A stretch of 64,000 bases of DNA from contig NZ_KB890622.1 in NCBI RefSeq assembly GCF_000373145.1, positions 62,001 through 126,000 of the forward strand, written 5' to 3'. Of this stretch, positions 31,585 to 62,602 are shown in pieces (position 1 is the stretch's first letter; every line of letters starts with the position of its first letter). The stretch comes from Thermus oshimai DSM 12092 (GTDB lineage: Bacteria > Deinococcota > Deinococci > Deinococcales > Thermaceae). Position numbers and translations under genes: made by a program. Under the pieces are notes generated by a model. That model was given only the letters and a program-made list of their open reading frames with translations. It was not told where the DNA came from and did not search any database.

Positions 31585-32490
31585 ATGCGTCTTTTTCTAG
31601 CCCTTTTCCTTGCCCTCGGCCTGGCCTCGGCCCAGGAGAACGTGGTGGCCCAGGTGGGCCCCGAGGCCATCACCAAGGAGGCCTTTGAGCTCCGCTACGG
31701 CCTCTTCATCAAAAGCGCCCTTGGCCAGCTGGGCCTGCCCGACACGGAGGAGACCCGCGCCCTCCTCGCCCAGTACCGCGCGCCCTACCTCGAGGCCCTG
31801 GCCGAGGAGCGGGCCCTCCTCCTAAGGGCCCAAAGGGAGGGGCTTTTCCCCAAAGAGGAAGAGGTGGAAGCCCGCGTCCAGGAGCTTAGGGGGGCCTTCC
31901 CCAGCGAGGAGGCCTTCTTGGAGGCCTTAAGGGGCGCGGGCCTTCCCGACCTCCCCACCTACCGCACCCTCCTCCGGGAGGCCCTGGCCCTGGAGGCCCT
32001 GGAGGCCCGCTACCGTGCCCGGCTTCAGGTCTCCCCGGCCGCCCTCCGCTTCCTCTACCACCTAAACCCCCCAAGGAGGCCCGCCCTGGCCTGCGCCCGG
32101 CACATCCTGGTGCCCACCTTGGAGGAGGCCAAGGACCTCCTAAACCGGCTGGAGCGGGGGGCTTCCTTCGCCGAGCTGGCCCAGGCCCACTCCCAAGACC
32201 CCGGCTCCGCCCCCCAAGGGGGGGCCTTGGGGTGCGAGGCCAGGGGGGCCTACGTGCCCGCCTTTGACCAGGCCCTGTGGGCCTTAAGGCCAGGGGAGGT
32301 CTCCGCCCCGGTGCGCACGGAGTTCGGCTACCACCTGATCCTTCTGGAGAGGCTCCTCCCCGCGGGGCGCGTCCCCCTGGAGGAGGTGGCGGAGGAGCTT
32401 AAGGCCCCCATCCTGGACCGGGCCTGGGAGAGGCTCAGCCGGGCCCTCATCCGCCCCTATCCCATCCAGATCTTTCCGGAAAGGTTATAA
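31585..32490 (+). CDS. parvulin-type peptidylprolyl isomerase, secreted
   Basis: A 301-residue protein starting with a signal peptide (MRLFLALFLALGLASAQ). Residues of about 20-165 form a SurA-like helical chaperone domain. The parvulin domain covers about 170-280: ACARHILVPTLEEAKDLLNRLERGASFAELAQAHSQD, GGALGCEARGAYVPAFDQALWAL and FGYHLILLERLL are the canonical blocks. Role: folding of exported or outer-membrane proteins. The ATG at 31585 follows TAGGAT by 5 bases and begins exactly at the signal peptide, so the five-codon upstream extension is not used. The last 44 bases overlap the convergent nitrilase gene. Confidence 0.9.
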   Translation: MRLFLALFLALGLASAQENVVAQVGPEAITKEAFELRYGLFIKSALGQLGLPDTEETRALLAQYRAPYLEALAEERALLLRAQREGLFPKEEEVEARVQELRGAFPSEEAFLEALRGAGLPDLPTYRTLLREALALEALEARYRARLQVSPAALRFLYHLNPPRRPALACARHILVPTLEEAKDLLNRLERGASFAELAQAHSQDPGSAPQGGALGCEARGAYVPAFDQALWALRPGEVSAPVRTEFGYHLILLERLLPAGRVPLEEVAEELKAPILDRAWERLSRALIRPYPIQIFPERL

Positions 32491-33325
32491 GGAGAGCCTC
32501 GTCCCCCGTGGGCCCCTGGGCCAGCCGTAGGGCCTCCCCGGGGGCGTAGATCCCGCTTTGCCCTTCAAAGGTGAGGCCCAGGATCCTCCCGTTCAGCATG
32601 GGGTTCAGGAGGAGCCCAAGGTTCTCCCGCCCCAGGAGCCGTGCCCGGGCGGAGGCCAGCCACACCTCCCCCTCCTTCCGGCTTGGGTCCTTGGGCCAGG
32701 GGCGCTCCCAAGGGGCAGGGTTGGCCGAGGGCTGGAGGAGGAGTTCCGCCCCCAGGGCGTCCAGCCGGGCCAGGTGGGCTTCAAAGAAACCGTCCAGGCA
32801 GATGAGAACCCCCACCCGCCCGGCCTGGGTGGCCACCAGGTGGGGTCCGAAGGCCCCCCGCTTCAGCCAGCGCTCCTGTGGGGTGAGCTCCATCTTGGGC
32901 ACCTGGGCCAGGAGGCGGCCTTGGGGGTTGAAGAAGAGGGCCAGGTTCTGAAAGAGGGGGGTGCGGGGGAAAAGCCCCCGGGCAAGCTCCTCCTCGTAGG
33001 GGGGGGAGAGGAGGGTGCCCGCAAGGAGGTAGGCCGAAAAGCGCCGGGCGGCCTCGGCCATGGTGTCCCGGAAGGCCCTATAGGCCCGCCGGGCCCGCCG
33101 CCAGGGGCTTAGGGGGTCTTTCAGGAGTTCCCGCGGGTGGAAGTCCCCCTCCAGGTGGAGGAGGAGGGGGAGGCCGAAGAGCTCCGGAAAGGCGGCGAGG
33201 CGGGGGGAAGGGGTGCCCTCTAAGGGCCTTAGGAGGGCGAAGACCCTTTCCCGGAAGGCCTCCTCCGTGCGGTAGTGCTCGGGGTGGACCTCGGTTTGGA
33301 GGGCAAGCAGGGTGCGGAAGCCCAT
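32447..33325 (-). CDS. carbon-nitrogen hydrolase (nitrilase superfamily)
   Basis: A 292-residue hydrolase with the Glu-Lys-Cys triad visible as E48 (FPELF), K144 (VPKMELT) and C176 (VLICLDGFF). The family cleaves amides, nitriles or carbamoyl groups; the region after the catalytic cysteine, QPSANPAPWERPW, is typical, but the substrate is not evident. Slightly longer than most members because of the insert FHPRELLKDPLSPWRRARRAYR. It lies 24 bases after the SDR gene stop on the same strand and may be read through from the fatty-acid operon. Confidence 0.88.
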   Translation of the reverse strand: MGFRTLLALQTEVHPEHYRTEEAFRERVFALLRPLEGTPSPRLAAFPELFGLPLLLHLEGDFHPRELLKDPLSPWRRARRAYRAFRDTMAEAARRFSAYLLAGTLLSPPYEEELARGLFPRTPLFQNLALFFNPQGRLLAQVPKMELTPQERWLKRGAFGPHLVATQAGRVGVLICLDGFFEAHLARLDALGAELLLQPSANPAPWERPWPKDPSRKEGEVWLASARARLLGRENLGLLLNPMLNGRILGLTFEGQSGIYAPGEALRLAQGPTGDEALLITFPERSGWDRGG

Positions 33326-33349: not shown

Positions 33350-34108
33350 TTAAACCGCGCTGGCCCCTCCGTCCACCGTGAGGACGGCCCCCGTGACGTA
33401 GTCCGAGGCGGGGCTGGCCAGGAAGAGCACCGCCCCCCCAAGCTCCCCCGGCTGCCCCGCCCGGCCCAAGGGGGTGAAGGCCTTGAGGAAGGCCTCCGCC
33501 TTGGGCAGGACCTTTTCCGTCATGCGGGTGGGGAAGAAGCCGGGGGCCAAGGCGTTCACCCGGATGCCCCACCGGCCCCACTTGGCCGCGGTGTCCCGGG
33601 TGAGGGCGATGAGCCCCCCCTTGGAGGCGGAGTAGCCCACCGCGTCCAACACCTCGGGGAACTCCCCCTTGAGCCCGGCGATGGAGGCGATGTGGACGAT
33701 CTTGCCGTAGCCCCGCTCCTTCATCCTCCTGGCGGCGGCCCGGCTTACCAGGAAGGCCCCCACGAGGTTCACCTCCAAGACCTCCCGCACCTTCTCCGCG
33801 GGCATTTCCAAGGAGGGGGCGCCCCAGCTCACCCCGGCCGCGTTCACCAGGACGGTGAGGGGGCCTAGGCTCCTTTCCACCTCCTCCACCACGGCTTCCA
33901 CCCGGGCCTCGTCCCGCACGTCCCCTTCCAGGTAAAGGGCGTCTGGGAGGTGCTTCCTGGCCTCCTCAAAGAAGCTGGCCCGGCGGGCCATGACCGCCAC
34001 CTGGGCCCCCGCCTCCCTCAGGGCCAGGGCGGCCTCGAGGCCAAGCCCCCTCGAGCCCCCGGTGACCAGGGCCACCTTCCCGTCTAGGCGGAACTTTTCC
34101 AGAAACAT
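33350..34108 (-). CDS. short-chain dehydrogenase/reductase (3-oxoacyl reductase type)
   Basis: A 252-residue SDR. The NAD(P)-binding TGGSRGLG motif is near residue 16, NAAG follows, and the catalytic Tyr and Lys are in GYSASKGGL with the upstream catalytic Ser in HIASIAGLKGEF. The C-terminal YVTGAVLTVDGGASA is standard. Probably acts on 3-hydroxyacyl or related acyl substrates, given its place 3 bases after the long-chain acyl-CoA synthetase gene in the same operon, but this is inferred from context. Confidence 0.88.
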   Translation of the reverse strand: MFLEKFRLDGKVALVTGGSRGLGLEAALALREAGAQVAVMARRASFFEEARKHLPDALYLEGDVRDEARVEAVVEEVERSLGPLTVLVNAAGVSWGAPSLEMPAEKVREVLEVNLVGAFLVSRAAARRMKERGYGKIVHIASIAGLKGEFPEVLDAVGYSASKGGLIALTRDTAAKWGRWGIRVNALAPGFFPTRMTEKVLPKAEAFLKAFTPLGRAGQPGELGGAVLFLASPASDYVTGAVLTVDGGASAV

Positions 34109-34111
34109 CGG

Positions 34112-35716
34112 CTACCCTCCCCCGTACAGGTTCTTGTATTGCTCCCTCAGGGCCCGCTTCAGGAACTTGCCGGCGCTGGTCCTCGGGATCTCCTCCACGA
34201 AGACGTAGGCGTCGGGGAGCTGCCACTTGGCGAAGCCCGCCTGGAGGAGGTGCTCGTTCAGCTCCTCCGGGGTGGGCCTCTCCCCCCGGGGCACCACCAC
34301 CGCCAGGGGCCTTTCCTGCCACTTGGGGTGGGGGATGGCCACCACCGCCGCCTCCTTCACCTTGGGGTGGCCCATGAGGGCGTTTTCCAGGTCCACGCTG
34401 GAGATCCACTCCCCGCCCGACTTGATGAGGTCCTTGAGCCGGTCCTTGATCTCCAGGTAGCCCTCCTCGTCCCACACGGCCATGTCCCCCGTGCGGAACC
34501 AGCCGTCCGCCGTAAGGGCCAGCCGGCTTGCCTCCTCGTTTTTGTAGTACCCCCCGGTGATCCAGGGGCCCTTGAGCTGGATCTCCCCCATGGTCTTCCC
34601 GTCCTTGGGCACGGGCTGGCCCCTCTCGTCCGCCACCCTGAGGCGCACCAGGGGGATGGGGAGGCCGGTCTTGGCCTTGAGCGTGAGCTTTTCTTCGGGG
34701 GAGAGGGTTTCCAGGTGGCTCTTGGTGAAGTTCTGCACCACCACGGGGGAGGTCTCCGTGAGGCCGTAGCCCTGGCGCACCTCAATCCCCATGCGCTCAA
34801 AGCGCCCGATGAGGCTCCTAGGGGCCGCGCTTCCCCCCACCACCAGGCGCTTCAGGGTTTTGAGGCGGTGGCCCGTGGCCTCCAGGTGCTCCGCCAGGGC
34901 CAGCCACACCGTGGGCACCCCCGCGGTGAAGGTGACCCCCTCCCCGTCCATGAGCTCCACCAGGGAGGCGGGGTCCAGCCGGGGCCCGGGCAGGACCTGC
35001 TTGGCCCCCACCAGGGTGGCCGCGTAGGGGAGGCACCAGGCGTTCACGTGGAACATGGGCACCACGGGGAGGACCACGTCCCTTTCCGAAAGGGCGGTGC
35101 CGTCCGCAAGGCTCGCCGCCAGGGTGTGGAGGACCAGGGCCCGGTGGCTGTAGACCACCCCCTTGGGCAGGCCCGTGGTCCCGGTGGTGTAGGCCATGCC
35201 GCAGGCCGCCCGTTCGGGGACGCGCACGGGTTCGGCCTCTTCCCCCAGGACCTCTTCGTAGCTCAGGTACCCTTCGGGGGCCCGTTCGTCCATGACCACG
35301 AAGTGCTCCACGGTCTTGAGCTCCGGCCGGAGGGCCTCCACCAGGGGGAGGAGGCCCGGGTCAAAGAGGAGGACCTTGTCCTCCGCGTGGTTCAGGATGT
35401 AGGCGATCTCCTTGGGGGAGAGGCGGGGGTTGGCGGTGTGGAGCACGGCCCCCATCCCGGGCACGGCGAAGTAGGCCTCGAGGTGGCGGAAGTGGTTGAA
35501 GCCCAGGGTGGCCACCCGGTCCCCCACGCCCACCCCTAAGGCCCTCAGGCCCCCCATGAGCCGTTTGGCCCGGCGGTGGACCCGAGCATAGTCCGTGCGG
35601 TGGATCTCCCCGGTGTGCAGGCGGGAGACCACCTCTTTCTTTCCGAAAAGCTCCGCCGCCCGCTCCAGGAAGTCCCAAAGGTTGAGCTCCTCCTCCATCA
35701 TGGTGCTTGGGAACAT
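34112..35716 (-). CDS. fadD: long-chain fatty-acid-CoA ligase (ttLC-FACS orthologue)
   Basis: A 534-residue acyl-CoA synthetase that closely matches the structurally known T. thermophilus HB8 enzyme from recall (FPSTMM.EELNLWDFLERAA, GVGDRVATLGFNHFRHLEAYFAVPG). The P-loop is YTTGTTGLPKGV, the A-motif is QGYGLTETSPVV, the L-motif is DRLKDLIKSGGEW. It activates fatty acids for beta-oxidation. I start at the ATG 35716, which follows AGGAGG; the longer frame adds two codons. TATACT (35747-35742) supplies its own -10, so it begins a transcript with the SDR gene. Confidence 0.93.
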   Translation of the reverse strand: MFPSTMMEEELNLWDFLERAAELFGKKEVVSRLHTGEIHRTDYARVHRRAKRLMGGLRALGVGVGDRVATLGFNHFRHLEAYFAVPGMGAVLHTANPRLSPKEIAYILNHAEDKVLLFDPGLLPLVEALRPELKTVEHFVVMDERAPEGYLSYEEVLGEEAEPVRVPERAACGMAYTTGTTGLPKGVVYSHRALVLHTLAASLADGTALSERDVVLPVVPMFHVNAWCLPYAATLVGAKQVLPGPRLDPASLVELMDGEGVTFTAGVPTVWLALAEHLEATGHRLKTLKRLVVGGSAAPRSLIGRFERMGIEVRQGYGLTETSPVVVQNFTKSHLETLSPEEKLTLKAKTGLPIPLVRLRVADERGQPVPKDGKTMGEIQLKGPWITGGYYKNEEASRLALTADGWFRTGDMAVWDEEGYLEIKDRLKDLIKSGGEWISSVDLENALMGHPKVKEAAVVAIPHPKWQERPLAVVVPRGERPTPEELNEHLLQAGFAKWQLPDAYVFVEEIPRTSAGKFLKRALREQYKNLYGGG

Positions 35717-35741
35717 GCCCACCTCCTTAGGCGTTGGACCC

Positions 35742-35747
35742 AGTATA
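35742..35747 (-). promoter_or_regulatory. -10 box of the fadD-SDR operon
   Basis: TATACT on the minus strand lies 25 bases before the fadD ATG, with AGGAGG between them. No clear -35 is seen; upstream sequence is the end of the frameshifted thioesterase gene. Confidence 0.45.
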
Positions 35748-35759
35748 TTCCCCTACCCG

Positions 35760-36090
35760 CTAGAAGACCCCCTTGGCGAAGGCCACGCGCCTTCCCTCCA
35801 GGAGCGCTTCCCCCGCGGCGTGAAGGAGGTGTTTTCCGGGGTGGACCACCCACCCCCGGGCGAGGAGGGAGCCCCCTCGCACCGGCCGCAGGTAGCTCAC
35901 GGAAAGCTCCGCGGTGACCACCCGCACCCCACCGCCTGGCCCAGGGCGCTGTCCAGGAGGGCGGCCAGGATCCCCCGTGGACCAGGCCCTGCCCCTGGAG
36001 GAACTCCTCCCGCACCTCCAGGGCAAGCTCCGCCTCGCCCCCTTCCCGCTTTAGCACCTTCGCGCCGAACCACCGGGCAAAGGGGCTCAC
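35760..36090 (-). pseudogene. PaaI-type thioesterase with two -1 frameshifts
   Basis: Three reading frames together encode one hotdog-fold thioesterase of about 110 residues. Frame 1 (GTG 36090) reads SPFARWFGAKVLKREGG through FLQGQGLVHGG; frame 2 would continue ILAALLDSALGQAV; frame 3 reads VRVVTAELSVSYLRPVRGG to KGVF and the stop at 35760. The joins are G-runs on the minus strand: five Gs (35972-35976) where six are expected, and four Gs (35927-35930) where five are expected. The GTG overlaps the maoC stop as GTGA, so the gene was part of the operon. Either two sequencing errors in homopolymers or a genuinely broken gene. Confidence 0.8.
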
Positions 36091-36533
36091 GCCGGCCTCC
36101 GCCGGACCATGGTCACGAACTCCCCTTCCTGCACCACCTCGCCCCGCTGGTTGTAGACCCTAACCCGCTGCACCAGGATGCCCCGGTCGGGCTTGGAGGT
36201 CTCCCGCTTCTCCAGGATCTCGCTTTCCCCATGGACCGTGTCCCCGATGAAGACGGGCTTGAGGAAGCGGTAGTTCCGGATCTCCATCCAGGCGATGACC
36301 GTGCCCTCAAAGTGCCCCGAGCGCTGCCTCAGGCCCGTGAGCATGGAGAGCACCAAAAGCCCATGGGCGATGCGCTGGCCGAAGGGGGTTTCCTTGGCGA
36401 ACTCCGCGTCGGTGTGGATGGGGTTGTAATCCCCCGAGACCCCGGCGAAGTTCACCACGTCCGCCTCCGTCACCGTGCGGGCTGGGGTCCTGAAGGTCTG
36501 GCCTACCTGGAAGTCCTCAAAGTACATGGGCAT
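36087..36533 (-). CDS. MaoC-family (R)-specific enoyl-CoA hydratase
   Basis: A 148-residue hotdog-fold hydratase. The catalytic Asp and His of the hydratase-2 motif are seen in GDYNPIHTDAEFAKETPFGQRIAHGLL, and MYFEDFQVGQTF is the common start of the MaoC family. The reaction is hydration of trans-2-enoyl-CoA to (R)-3-hydroxyacyl-CoA. I start at the ATG 36533 because AGGAGG lies 8 bases before it; an upstream GTG is too close to that site. It lies 12 bases after the acyl-CoA dehydrogenase gene in the tetR operon. Confidence 0.9.
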   Translation of the reverse strand: MPMYFEDFQVGQTFRTPARTVTEADVVNFAGVSGDYNPIHTDAEFAKETPFGQRIAHGLLVLSMLTGLRQRSGHFEGTVIAWMEIRNYRFLKPVFIGDTVHGESEILEKRETSKPDRGILVQRVRVYNQRGEVVQEGEFVTMVRRRPA

Positions 36534-36545
36534 GCGCCTCACCTC

Positions 36546-37685
36546 CTAGCTGAAGGCCCGGAGGCCGGTGAGCTCCGCGCCGATGATGAGCTTCTGGATC
36601 TCGTTCGTCCCCTCGTAGAGGGTGGCCACCCGGGCGTCCCGGTAGAGCCGGGCCGCCTCGTACTCCTCAAAGAAGCCGTACCCCCCAAGGAGCTGGATGG
36701 CCCGGTAGGCGTTGCGGTTCGCGGCCTCGGAGGCGAAGAGCTTGGCCAGGCTGGCCTCCAGGGTGTAGCGCGCCCCCGAGAGCTTCTTGGCCGCGGCCTG
36801 GTAGGTGAGGAGCCTCGAGGCCTCCAGCTCGGCCTTCATCTCCGCCAGGGTGGCCTGGACCAGCTGGAAGGCCGCGAGGGGCTTCCCGAACTGCTTCCTT
36901 TCCTTCACGTGGGCGAGGGCGATCTCCAGGGCTTTCTGGCTGATCCCCACGGAGCCTGCGGCCAGGGAGATCCGGCCCGTGTCCAGGGTGGAAAGGGCGA
37001 TCCGAAAGCCCATCCCCTCCTCCCCCAAAACGCGGTCCTTGGGCACCCATACCCCGTCCAGGAAGACCATCCCCGTGTCCGCGGCCCTGAGGCCGAGCTT
37101 CCCCTTAAGGGGCGTGCTCCTCACCCCGTCCTTCCGCTCCACCAAAAAGGCGGTGATCCCCTTGGCCCCCTTCTCGGGGTCCGTCTTGGCGAAGACGAGG
37201 AAGACCTCGGCCACGTTGCCGTGGGAGATGAAGGTCTTCTGGCCCTCGAGGACATACCCGTCCCCATCCCGGTGGGCCCGGGTCCGGAGGCTTGCCGCGT
37301 CCGAGCCCGCCTCGGGCTCCGTGAGGCAGAAGGCCCCCAGGACCTCCCCCCGGGCCAAAGGGGGCACGTACCGGGCCTTCTGGGCCTCGGTGCCGTAGGC
37401 GAGGAGGGGGGAGAGGACCAGGCTCTGCTGCACGGAGAGGATGGAGCGCAAGGAGCCGTATCCCCCCATCTCCTCCAGAAGGGCCAGGTAAGCCCAGAAG
37501 TCCAGCCCCGCCCCCCCGAGCCCCTCGGGGACGAAGACCCCGAAGAGGCCGAGCTCGGCCATCCGCCGCACCAGGGGCCAGGGGAAGGCCTCCTTAGCCT
37601 CGTACTCGGGGAGGACCCCCTTGGCCTCCTCCAAGAACCTCCGGGCCAGGGCCCGGATCTCCTTCTGCTCAGCTTCCTTCCACAT
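36546..37685 (-). CDS. acyl-CoA dehydrogenase
   Basis: A 379-residue FAD enzyme introducing the trans-2 double bond in acyl-CoA. FCLTEPEAGSDAASLRTRA and the GQKTFISHGNVAEVF region are the first FAD signature, and QLLGGYGFFEEYEAARLYRDARVATLYEGTNEIQK contains the catalytic glutamate (YEGTNEIQ). The start ATG 37685 (MWKEAEQ) lies 17 bases inside the tetR 3' end, indicating coupled expression; the longer frame adds a poorly conserved arginine-rich stretch. The next step in the same operon is the MaoC hydratase. Confidence 0.94.
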   Translation of the reverse strand: MWKEAEQKEIRALARRFLEEAKGVLPEYEAKEAFPWPLVRRMAELGLFGVFVPEGLGGAGLDFWAYLALLEEMGGYGSLRSILSVQQSLVLSPLLAYGTEAQKARYVPPLARGEVLGAFCLTEPEAGSDAASLRTRAHRDGDGYVLEGQKTFISHGNVAEVFLVFAKTDPEKGAKGITAFLVERKDGVRSTPLKGKLGLRAADTGMVFLDGVWVPKDRVLGEEGMGFRIALSTLDTGRISLAAGSVGISQKALEIALAHVKERKQFGKPLAAFQLVQATLAEMKAELEASRLLTYQAAAKKLSGARYTLEASLAKLFASEAANRNAYRAIQLLGGYGFFEEYEAARLYRDARVATLYEGTNEIQKLIIGAELTGLRAFS

Positions 37686-38238
37686 GGAGCCCCCTATGGA
37701 TGAGGTCAAAGTACTCCCGCGCCACCTCCTCCGCCCGCTTGGGGCCACCGGGTTTGAACCAGCGGATCATCCAGTTGAGGAGGGAGAGCACCGCCCGCCC
37801 CGCCAGGGCCACGTCCACCGGGCGGAAGGCCCCCTCTTCCACCCCCCGCCGGAGGATGGCCCGGAGGTTCCCCTCGTGCCGGTCCCGCAGGGCCACGGTC
37901 TTGGCCCGGCCCTCGGGGGAGAGGCTTTCTAGCCCCTGGAGCATGGCCACGAAGAAGGGGCGGTTCTCCTCAAAATAGCGGGCGTGGGCGGTCATGAAGG
38001 CGAGGAGGGCCTCCTTGGGGTCTTCCACCTTCAGGGCCTCCTCCCCGGCCCGGACCAGGCCCTTTAGGGCCAGGAGGCTGATCTCCAGGAGGATCTCCTC
38101 TTTGCTCCGGAAGTGGTGGTAAAGCGCGGCCTTGGAAAGGCCCAGGGCCTCGGCGAGGTCCTGGACGCTGGTGGCCTCGTAGCCTTTCTCCGTGAAGAGC
38201 TGGGCGGCCTCCTGGAGGATGCGGGTGCGGGTGTCCAT
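37669..38238 (-). CDS. TetR-family regulator of the acyl-CoA genes
   Basis: A 189-residue repressor. The helix-turn-helix TRTRILQEAAQLFTEKGYEATSVQDLAEALGLSKAALYHHFRSKEEIL is classic TetR. The C-terminal LNWMIRWFKPGGPKRAEEVAREYFDLIHRGL matches fatty-acid-sensing TetR proteins of the FadR/PfmR kind that I recall from Thermus and Bacillus, which release DNA on binding long-chain acyl-CoA; the ligand here is inferred. First gene of an operon with acyl-CoA dehydrogenase, MaoC hydratase and the broken thioesterase; its own promoter carries a palindromic operator, so it is autoregulated. Confidence 0.92.
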   Translation of the reverse strand: MDTRTRILQEAAQLFTEKGYEATSVQDLAEALGLSKAALYHHFRSKEEILLEISLLALKGLVRAGEEALKVEDPKEALLAFMTAHARYFEENRPFFVAMLQGLESLSPEGRAKTVALRDRHEGNLRAILRRGVEEGAFRPVDVALAGRAVLSLLNWMIRWFKPGGPKRAEEVAREYFDLIHRGLHVEGS

Positions 38239-61412: not shown

Positions 61413-62602
61413 AGCCCAAGACCCCCAGGGCCCTGGCCGTGGACCTCCTCCTTCAGGTGGAGGAGGGGGCCAGGGCCCAGCTCCTTCTGGACCGGGTCTT
61501 GGACCGCCTGCCCTGGCCCGAGCGGGACAAGGCCTACGCCACCCACCTGGTCTACGGGGCCCTCCGGCGGCTTTACCTTCTGGATTTCCTCTTGGAGCCC
61601 CACCTTTCCCGCCCCGAGGGGCTTCCTCGGGCCATCCGCTGGGTTCTCCGCTTAGGGGCGTTGGAGTGGCTTCTCGGCAAGGCGGACCACGCCCGGGTCC
61701 ACCCCTGGGTGGAGGAGGCCAAGGCCCGCCACCCCCGCCTGGCCGGTCTGGTGAACGCCGTCCTCCGCCGCCTGGCCCCCCGGGAGGCCCCCCCATGGGT
61801 GCGGCTTTCCCTTCCCGAGTGGCTCCTTAAGGCCTGGGAGGGCTTCTTCGGAGACCTTTCCTTCGCCGAGGCCCTGAACGAGCCCGCGCCCCTTTTCGTC
61901 ACCGCCTACCGGGAGGTGGAGGGGCTACCCCCTGGCCCCTTGCCGGAGAGCTTCATCTGGCCCGGCCCCAAGGCGGACTTTCCCGCCCTGGGCCTCCAGC
62001 CCCAGAACCCCGCCTCCCTCTTCGCCGCAAAGCTTCTGGAGGCCCAGCCGGGGGAGAGGGTGTTGGACCTCTGCGGGGGGGCGGGGCTCAAGGCCTTCCA
62101 CCTGGCGGCCCGGGGGGCGGAGGTGGTCTCCTACGACCTGAACCCCAAGCGCCAGGCCGCGGGGCGGAAGACGGCGGAGCGGCTTGGCCTGAAGGTGGCC
62201 TACCGCACCCAGGACCTTAGGGCGCCCTTAGGGGAAAAGGCCCCCAAGGTCCTCCTGGATGCCCCCTGCACGGGGACCGGCACCTTGCGCACCCACCCCG
62301 AGCTCCGCTACCGCCTCTCGCCGGAAGACCCCAAGGAGATGGCCCGCCTGCAACGGGCCCTTCTGGAAACCGCGGCCTCCGCGGTGGAGGAGGGGGGCCT
62401 TTTGGTCTACGCGGTCTGCGCCCTCACGGAGGAGGAGGGGGAAGGGGTGGTGCGGGCCTTTTTGCAGGACCACCCGGAGTTTGCCCTCGAGCCCTTCGCT
62501 TGCCCCTTCCCCGTCCTTCGGGAGGGGCTTGGGGTCTACGTGGCCCCCCTGGGGGGGCTGGACGGGTTCTACTACGCCCGGCTCCGGCGGGCTAAACTTT
62601 AG
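61409..62602 (+). CDS. rsmB: 16S rRNA m5C methyltransferase (RsmB/NOL1 family with NusB domain)
   Basis: A 397-residue two-domain methyltransferase. Residues of about 1-130 are a NusB-like RNA-binding domain (ALAVDLLLQVEEGARAQLLLDRVL). The SAM domain has VLDLCGGAGLKAFHLA, DAPCTGTGTLRTHPE with a conserved Cys, and LLVYAVCALTEEE with the catalytic Cys. The start is TTG 61409, overlapping the spoVS stop (TTGA); no better start is seen. Target position on rRNA (C967 in E. coli) is inferred from the family. Confidence 0.88.
   Translation: MKPKTPRALAVDLLLQVEEGARAQLLLDRVLDRLPWPERDKAYATHLVYGALRRLYLLDFLLEPHLSRPEGLPRAIRWVLRLGALEWLLGKADHARVHPWVEEAKARHPRLAGLVNAVLRRLAPREAPPWVRLSLPEWLLKAWEGFFGDLSFAEALNEPAPLFVTAYREVEGLPPGPLPESFIWPGPKADFPALGLQPQNPASLFAAKLLEAQPGERVLDLCGGAGLKAFHLAARGAEVVSYDLNPKRQAAGRKTAERLGLKVAYRTQDLRAPLGEKAPKVLLDAPCTGTGTLRTHPELRYRLSPEDPKEMARLQRALLETAASAVEEGGLLVYAVCALTEEEGEGVVRAFLQDHPEFALEPFACPFPVLREGLGVYVAPLGGLDGFYYARLRRAKL

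Follow-up and report, generated by a model that had tools for sequence, protein, structure and literature searches.

A probable recent pseudogene of a hotdog-fold thioesterase beside an intact maoC-like gene in Thermus oshimai

Analysis of a 64,000-nucleotide stretch of the Thermus oshimai DSM 12092 genome (the window; positions 62,001 to 126,000 of NZ_KB890622.1) identified a run of genes for a TetR-type regulator, an acyl-CoA dehydrogenase, a MaoC-like hydratase, a thioesterase, an AMP-dependent acyl-CoA ligase and an SDR oxidoreductase (Table 1), an arrangement that looks like an acyl-CoA catabolic operon. The window is part of contig C21 of this 2.26 Mb, 24-contig genome. An earlier note on this DNA had described the neighbors of the thioesterase gene as intact, and the maoC, ligase, SDR and acyl-CoA dehydrogenase genes were indeed all open. 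It was also correct that the start of the thioesterase gene (hereafter paaI-like), a GTG, overlaps the maoC stop by 4 nt as GTGA. Counterparts of the maoC gene at 84–95% identity were present in 25 of the 26 other genomes of the genus, the exception (G025) being only 65% complete. The acyl-CoA ligase start that is common to the relatives is the ATG at 35716.

Table 1. Features of the thioesterase locus, in window coordinates.
Feature	Coordinates	Strand	Basis or remark
TetR-type regulator gene, intact	37669..38238	-	upstream order as in HB8 pTT27
Acyl-CoA dehydrogenase gene, intact	36546..37685	-	
maoC-like hydratase gene, intact	36087..36542	-	PF01575 match
Hotdog-fold thioesterase gene (paaI-like), probably decayed	36090..35760	-	pieces in three frames align with intact orthologues
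Lesion 1: 1-nt loss in G-run of HGG motif	35972..35976	-	DNA alignments with relatives
Lesion 2: net 10-nt loss, three codons and one base	35927..35930	-	DNA and protein alignments; segment present in HB8 pTT27
Lesion 3: TAG for TAC (Tyr) of relatives, usual stop gone	35762..35760	-	DNA alignments
TATACT box between paaI-like and ligase genes	35742..35747	-	possible ligase promoter element
AMP-dependent acyl-CoA ligase gene, intact	34112..35722	-	PF00501 and PF13193 matches
SDR oxidoreductase gene, intact	33350..34108	-	

Read from its GTG, the paaI-like gene gives 40 codons up to an HGG motif, after which a second frame continues the similarity to orthologues for about 14 codons and a third for about 55 codons. 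Profile searches with the 130-codon frame that opens at 36090 matched no family. The C-terminal piece of the gene scored 33.7 bits against PF03061 (4HBT), over the cut-off of 20.6, and 29.5 bits against TIGR00369, under the cut-off of 36.6; the intact orthologue in the relative G002 scored 59.6 and 84 bits, respectively. The name PaaI, given to the gene in the earlier note, is thus appropriate at the level of the family (PF03061/TIGR00369) but not more narrowly, because the intact G002 orthologue was below the cut-off of the PaaI equivalog TIGR02286 (50.7 versus 118.9 bits) and the T. thermophilus PaaI of known structure corresponds to another gene. That protein (PDB 1J1Y/1WLU/2DSL) shares its superfamily with the broken gene, whose intact G002 orthologue it matches at 44.4 bits, but is a paralogue rather than an orthologue, and the counterpart of 1J1Y in T. 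oshimai is an intact gene at C18:178627-179031 (E 1.5e-60).

Other intact relatives of the thioesterase in this genome were found at C13:39177-39584 and on contig C16, adjoining a second maoC. This second intact maoC-thioesterase pair (L148; G000 contig C16, 1-3588) lies on a 3.6-kb contig. Over 3.6 kb of DNA, at 69% identity, the contig matched a maoC-paaI-SDR cluster on plasmid pHB5018c of T. thermophilus HB5018. The HB5018 cluster resembles the locus studied here in its paired maoC and thioesterase genes, and it adjoins a gene of the benzoate-CoA ligase family; it is, however, a separate cluster, and the C16 counterpart of its thioesterase is intact in T. oshimai.

Among known systems, TTH_RS10090 (WP_011229258.1) on pTT27 of T. 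thermophilus HB8 is likewise flanked by maoC and an acyl-CoA ligase gene, with the same 4-nt overlap with maoC and with TetR, dehydrogenase and SDR genes in the same operon-like run. It differs in having an open frame of 117 codons, whereas the T. oshimai gene has three lesions, and the HB8 operon has two additional genes between the dehydrogenase and maoC. As a separate observation, the acyl-CoA ligase gene in the same HB8 operon as this intact thioesterase is just 945 nt long (L288:6856-7800), and its shortening was judged by eye to consist of two in-frame internal deletions.

The TATACT box downstream of the paaI-like gene may be a promoter element of the ligase gene. A promoter and terminator scan of the locus detected nothing, including no site at the box. 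In most of 17 aligned genomes the box read TATACT, TATGCT or TATCCT, even where the paaI-like gene was nearly absent; it was not kept in G018, G020 and G024.

The lesions were defined by reading the DNA stretch 3' of maoC in the 26 genus genomes with a close maoC and aligning those that were informative. For the first DNA alignment the rows of 10 of 15 relatives were used, L011, L012, L016, L022 and L024 being disregarded as they were on the wrong strand. The closest aligned stretches of relatives at this locus were at most about 87% identical. Lesion 1 falls inside the HGG motif, which together with a following Asp we take to be the active site in the hotdog-fold thioesterase family. The run is G5 in T. 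oshimai versus G6, GGGGGC or GGCGGC in intact relatives, and this loss of one nucleotide bears out the first of two frame breaks proposed in the earlier note. The second had been ascribed to one missing G. A frame break does occur there, but the net loss is 10 nt when compared with 13 orthologues, and can be read either as one event or as two, with 9 nt deleted in frame between TGG repeats and a single G lost as well. The three missing codons are Glu-Ser-Leu in most relatives and were kept in all 13 maoC-adjacent orthologues at the protein level; they were also seen in DNA alignments for 12 of these (the 10 above, G006 and G024), with G013 compared as protein only. The same comparison with orthologues, which that note had recommended, identified a lesion that it had missed: lesion 3 replaces the conserved Tyr of ...GVFYRVG, which in most relatives lies four codons before the usual end, and the early TAG shortens the protein by only about four residues. 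The frame-breaking changes were not present in intact orthologues, and none of the 25 other genomes in which the stretch 3' of maoC was read had these two breaks.

An alternative to gene decay is that homopolymer errors of sequencing or assembly occurred twice in a gene that is functional despite a natural three-codon deletion and a short C-terminal truncation; both frame breaks do fall in G-runs. Lesion 2 fits this possibility when read as a natural 9-nt loss and one missing G, and the TAG would cost the protein only its last few residues. To gauge how often such errors occur, a codon-usage gene caller was applied to 1.65 Mb of G002, and the resulting 1,559 genes were set against 848 kb of the T. 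oshimai assembly (approximately 38% of the genome); this replaced a frame comparison restricted to the window, which had been swamped by shadow frames. Frame breaks were found in 3 of 486 comparable G002 genes and the paaI-like gene was the sole one that stood up, in a control that used one relative and was blind to breaks close to gene ends and in fast-evolving genes. The second break was in G002 itself, the gene being whole in T. oshimai by the reverse comparison, and the third was an over-long gene call that crossed a neighbor on the opposite strand. The reverse comparison identified G002-side breaks in 3 of 472 genes.

The compared genes (470 kb; 484 genes under a slightly different filter) contained 13,745 G/C runs of length ≥4, including 5,575 of length ≥5. 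The upper 95% error rate for no errors in 13,745 runs gave a probability of 2.4e-6 for two or more errors in the paaI-like gene, which has 10 runs; with 2,300 genes assumed, the corresponding probability is about 0.005. It is therefore improbable that errors would strike twice in this short gene while sparing all the others compared. Together with the 10-nt gap and the TAC to TAG change, which are not single-base homopolymer changes, and with the loss of the gene in relatives also (see below), the control favors the lesions being real. Sequencing error, one of the options raised in the earlier note, is consequently quite unlikely.

The remaining residues of the paaI-like gene bear on the age of the break. 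At 60 positions invariant in 11 intact relatives (G017 included, gap masked), the gene was changed at none, and thus no relaxed constraint was seen. When each relative was tested in the same manner against the other ten, 6 of the 11 had no changes and the other five had 1, 2, 2, 7 and 9. Without G017, 6 of 71 positions were changed, of which three were gaps from the deletion and early stop and three were residues shared with G017; the near-copies G013, G018 and G026 were left out of both tests. If the gene is a pseudogene, its break would therefore be recent. By its residues, the gene fits a very recent break, but identity to relatives at 60 of 60 positions would fit sequencing error as well, and is the strongest argument in favor of that alternative.

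The earlier note had further raised the possibility that transcriptional or ribosomal slippage at both G-runs yields the full-length protein, perhaps at high temperature. Efficient transcriptional slippage is known in the genus from dnaX of T. thermophilus, where it occurs at nine As within the coding sequence; the paper describing it also allows for slippage at shorter runs in some bacteria and for other repeats being slippery (PMC1088944). The runs here are only G5 and G4, in a genome part in which G/C runs of five or more are ordinary, and in contrast to the dnaX case as described there, no single shift restores one frame. A single message would have to undergo two shifts, one of the lesions is a 10-nt gap, and the predicted RNA fold around the runs was no better than shuffles (z -0.47). 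Neither a long slippery run nor, among the 25 genomes read, a relative with the same breaks was found. Slippage-dependent expression thus gained no support and we consider it extremely improbable.

Searches of 26 Thermus genomes for the orthologue, with a 27th (G025, 65% complete) set aside, found it intact in 14, damaged or as a remnant in 9, and not at all in 3 (G003, G011 and G021). Thirteen of the intact orthologues were beside maoC, and that of G017 was beside its ligase gene, away from that maoC. The damaged set comprised T. oshimai itself (G000), G001, G009, G010, G012, G014, G015, G016 and G019, with the remnants in G009, G010 and G016 being short, G019 judged from translation only and G015 represented by one 55-residue match. 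The forms of damage varied. G001 kept an open frame that was without its first approximately 20 codons and had HDG in place of HGG, and G014 (T. composti) had an internal deletion through HGG. In G021 (T. parvatiensis), a genome 87% complete in which the locus is nonetheless covered, nearly the whole gene was gone. In G012 (T. arciformis; L048/L165), foreign DNA followed the seventh codon and matched two places in G002 (L211 and L245) at approximately 96% identity; the contig ends inside this DNA, which is likely an insertion sequence. As the gene is broken in other ways in several relatives, ordinary gene loss is a better account of the T. oshimai lesions than an expression trick. A literature search gave no title on the loss of the paaI-like gene among the matches listed.

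A tree of maoC and ligase genes from the same locus (26 rows, 6 with maoC only) required at least four changes between intact and lost states, forced by well-supported branches. An earlier tree was dropped because it included non-homologous DNA upstream of maoC. The number of changes could be inflated by horizontal transfer, since the operon in T. thermophilus HB8 is on the megaplasmid pTT27. Separately, another hotdog paralogue, with frames of 139–142 codons in other genomes, had in-frame stops within the match at G014:C15:17488, G021:C1:1515247 and G020:C2:1719549, and loss of such thioesterases may therefore be common in Thermus.

Based on the three lesions, the intact relatives, the 486-gene control and the repeated loss in the genus, we are confident that the gene at 36090-35760 is a real and recent pseudogene, an option that the earlier note had also listed. 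It is most likely an ordinary one, in a genus that has lost this thioesterase several times. It would have encoded a small hotdog-fold thioesterase of the apparent acyl-CoA catabolic operon. Three changes have inactivated it: one nucleotide is missing from a G-run, about 10 nt were deleted between short repeats, and a codon was substituted to a stop. Presumably no working protein is made now. The loss may be tolerated because the enzyme was accessory or because the paralogues on C16, C13 and C18 cover for it. We also considered that the activity is costly, as the thioesterase could hydrolyze the operon's own CoA intermediates, in which case its destruction would have been favored repeatedly while the adjoining maoC was kept; this seems unlikely. 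The repeated loss next to an intact maoC does offer a way to test whether the enzyme is dispensable or costly. A single recently formed pseudogene in one draft Thermus assembly carries little weight by itself. It is, however, a worked case in which homopolymer frame breaks, readily dismissed as errors, look real given orthologues and a many-gene control.

Two further genes were observed to be open in one genome and broken in the other. A carbon-nitrogen-hydrolase-like gene (named by eye) near the operon, at 32447-33325, was open in T. oshimai and frame-broken in G002. The counterpart of a 1,492-codon T. oshimai gene at C13:149275-153753 was likewise frame-broken in G002.
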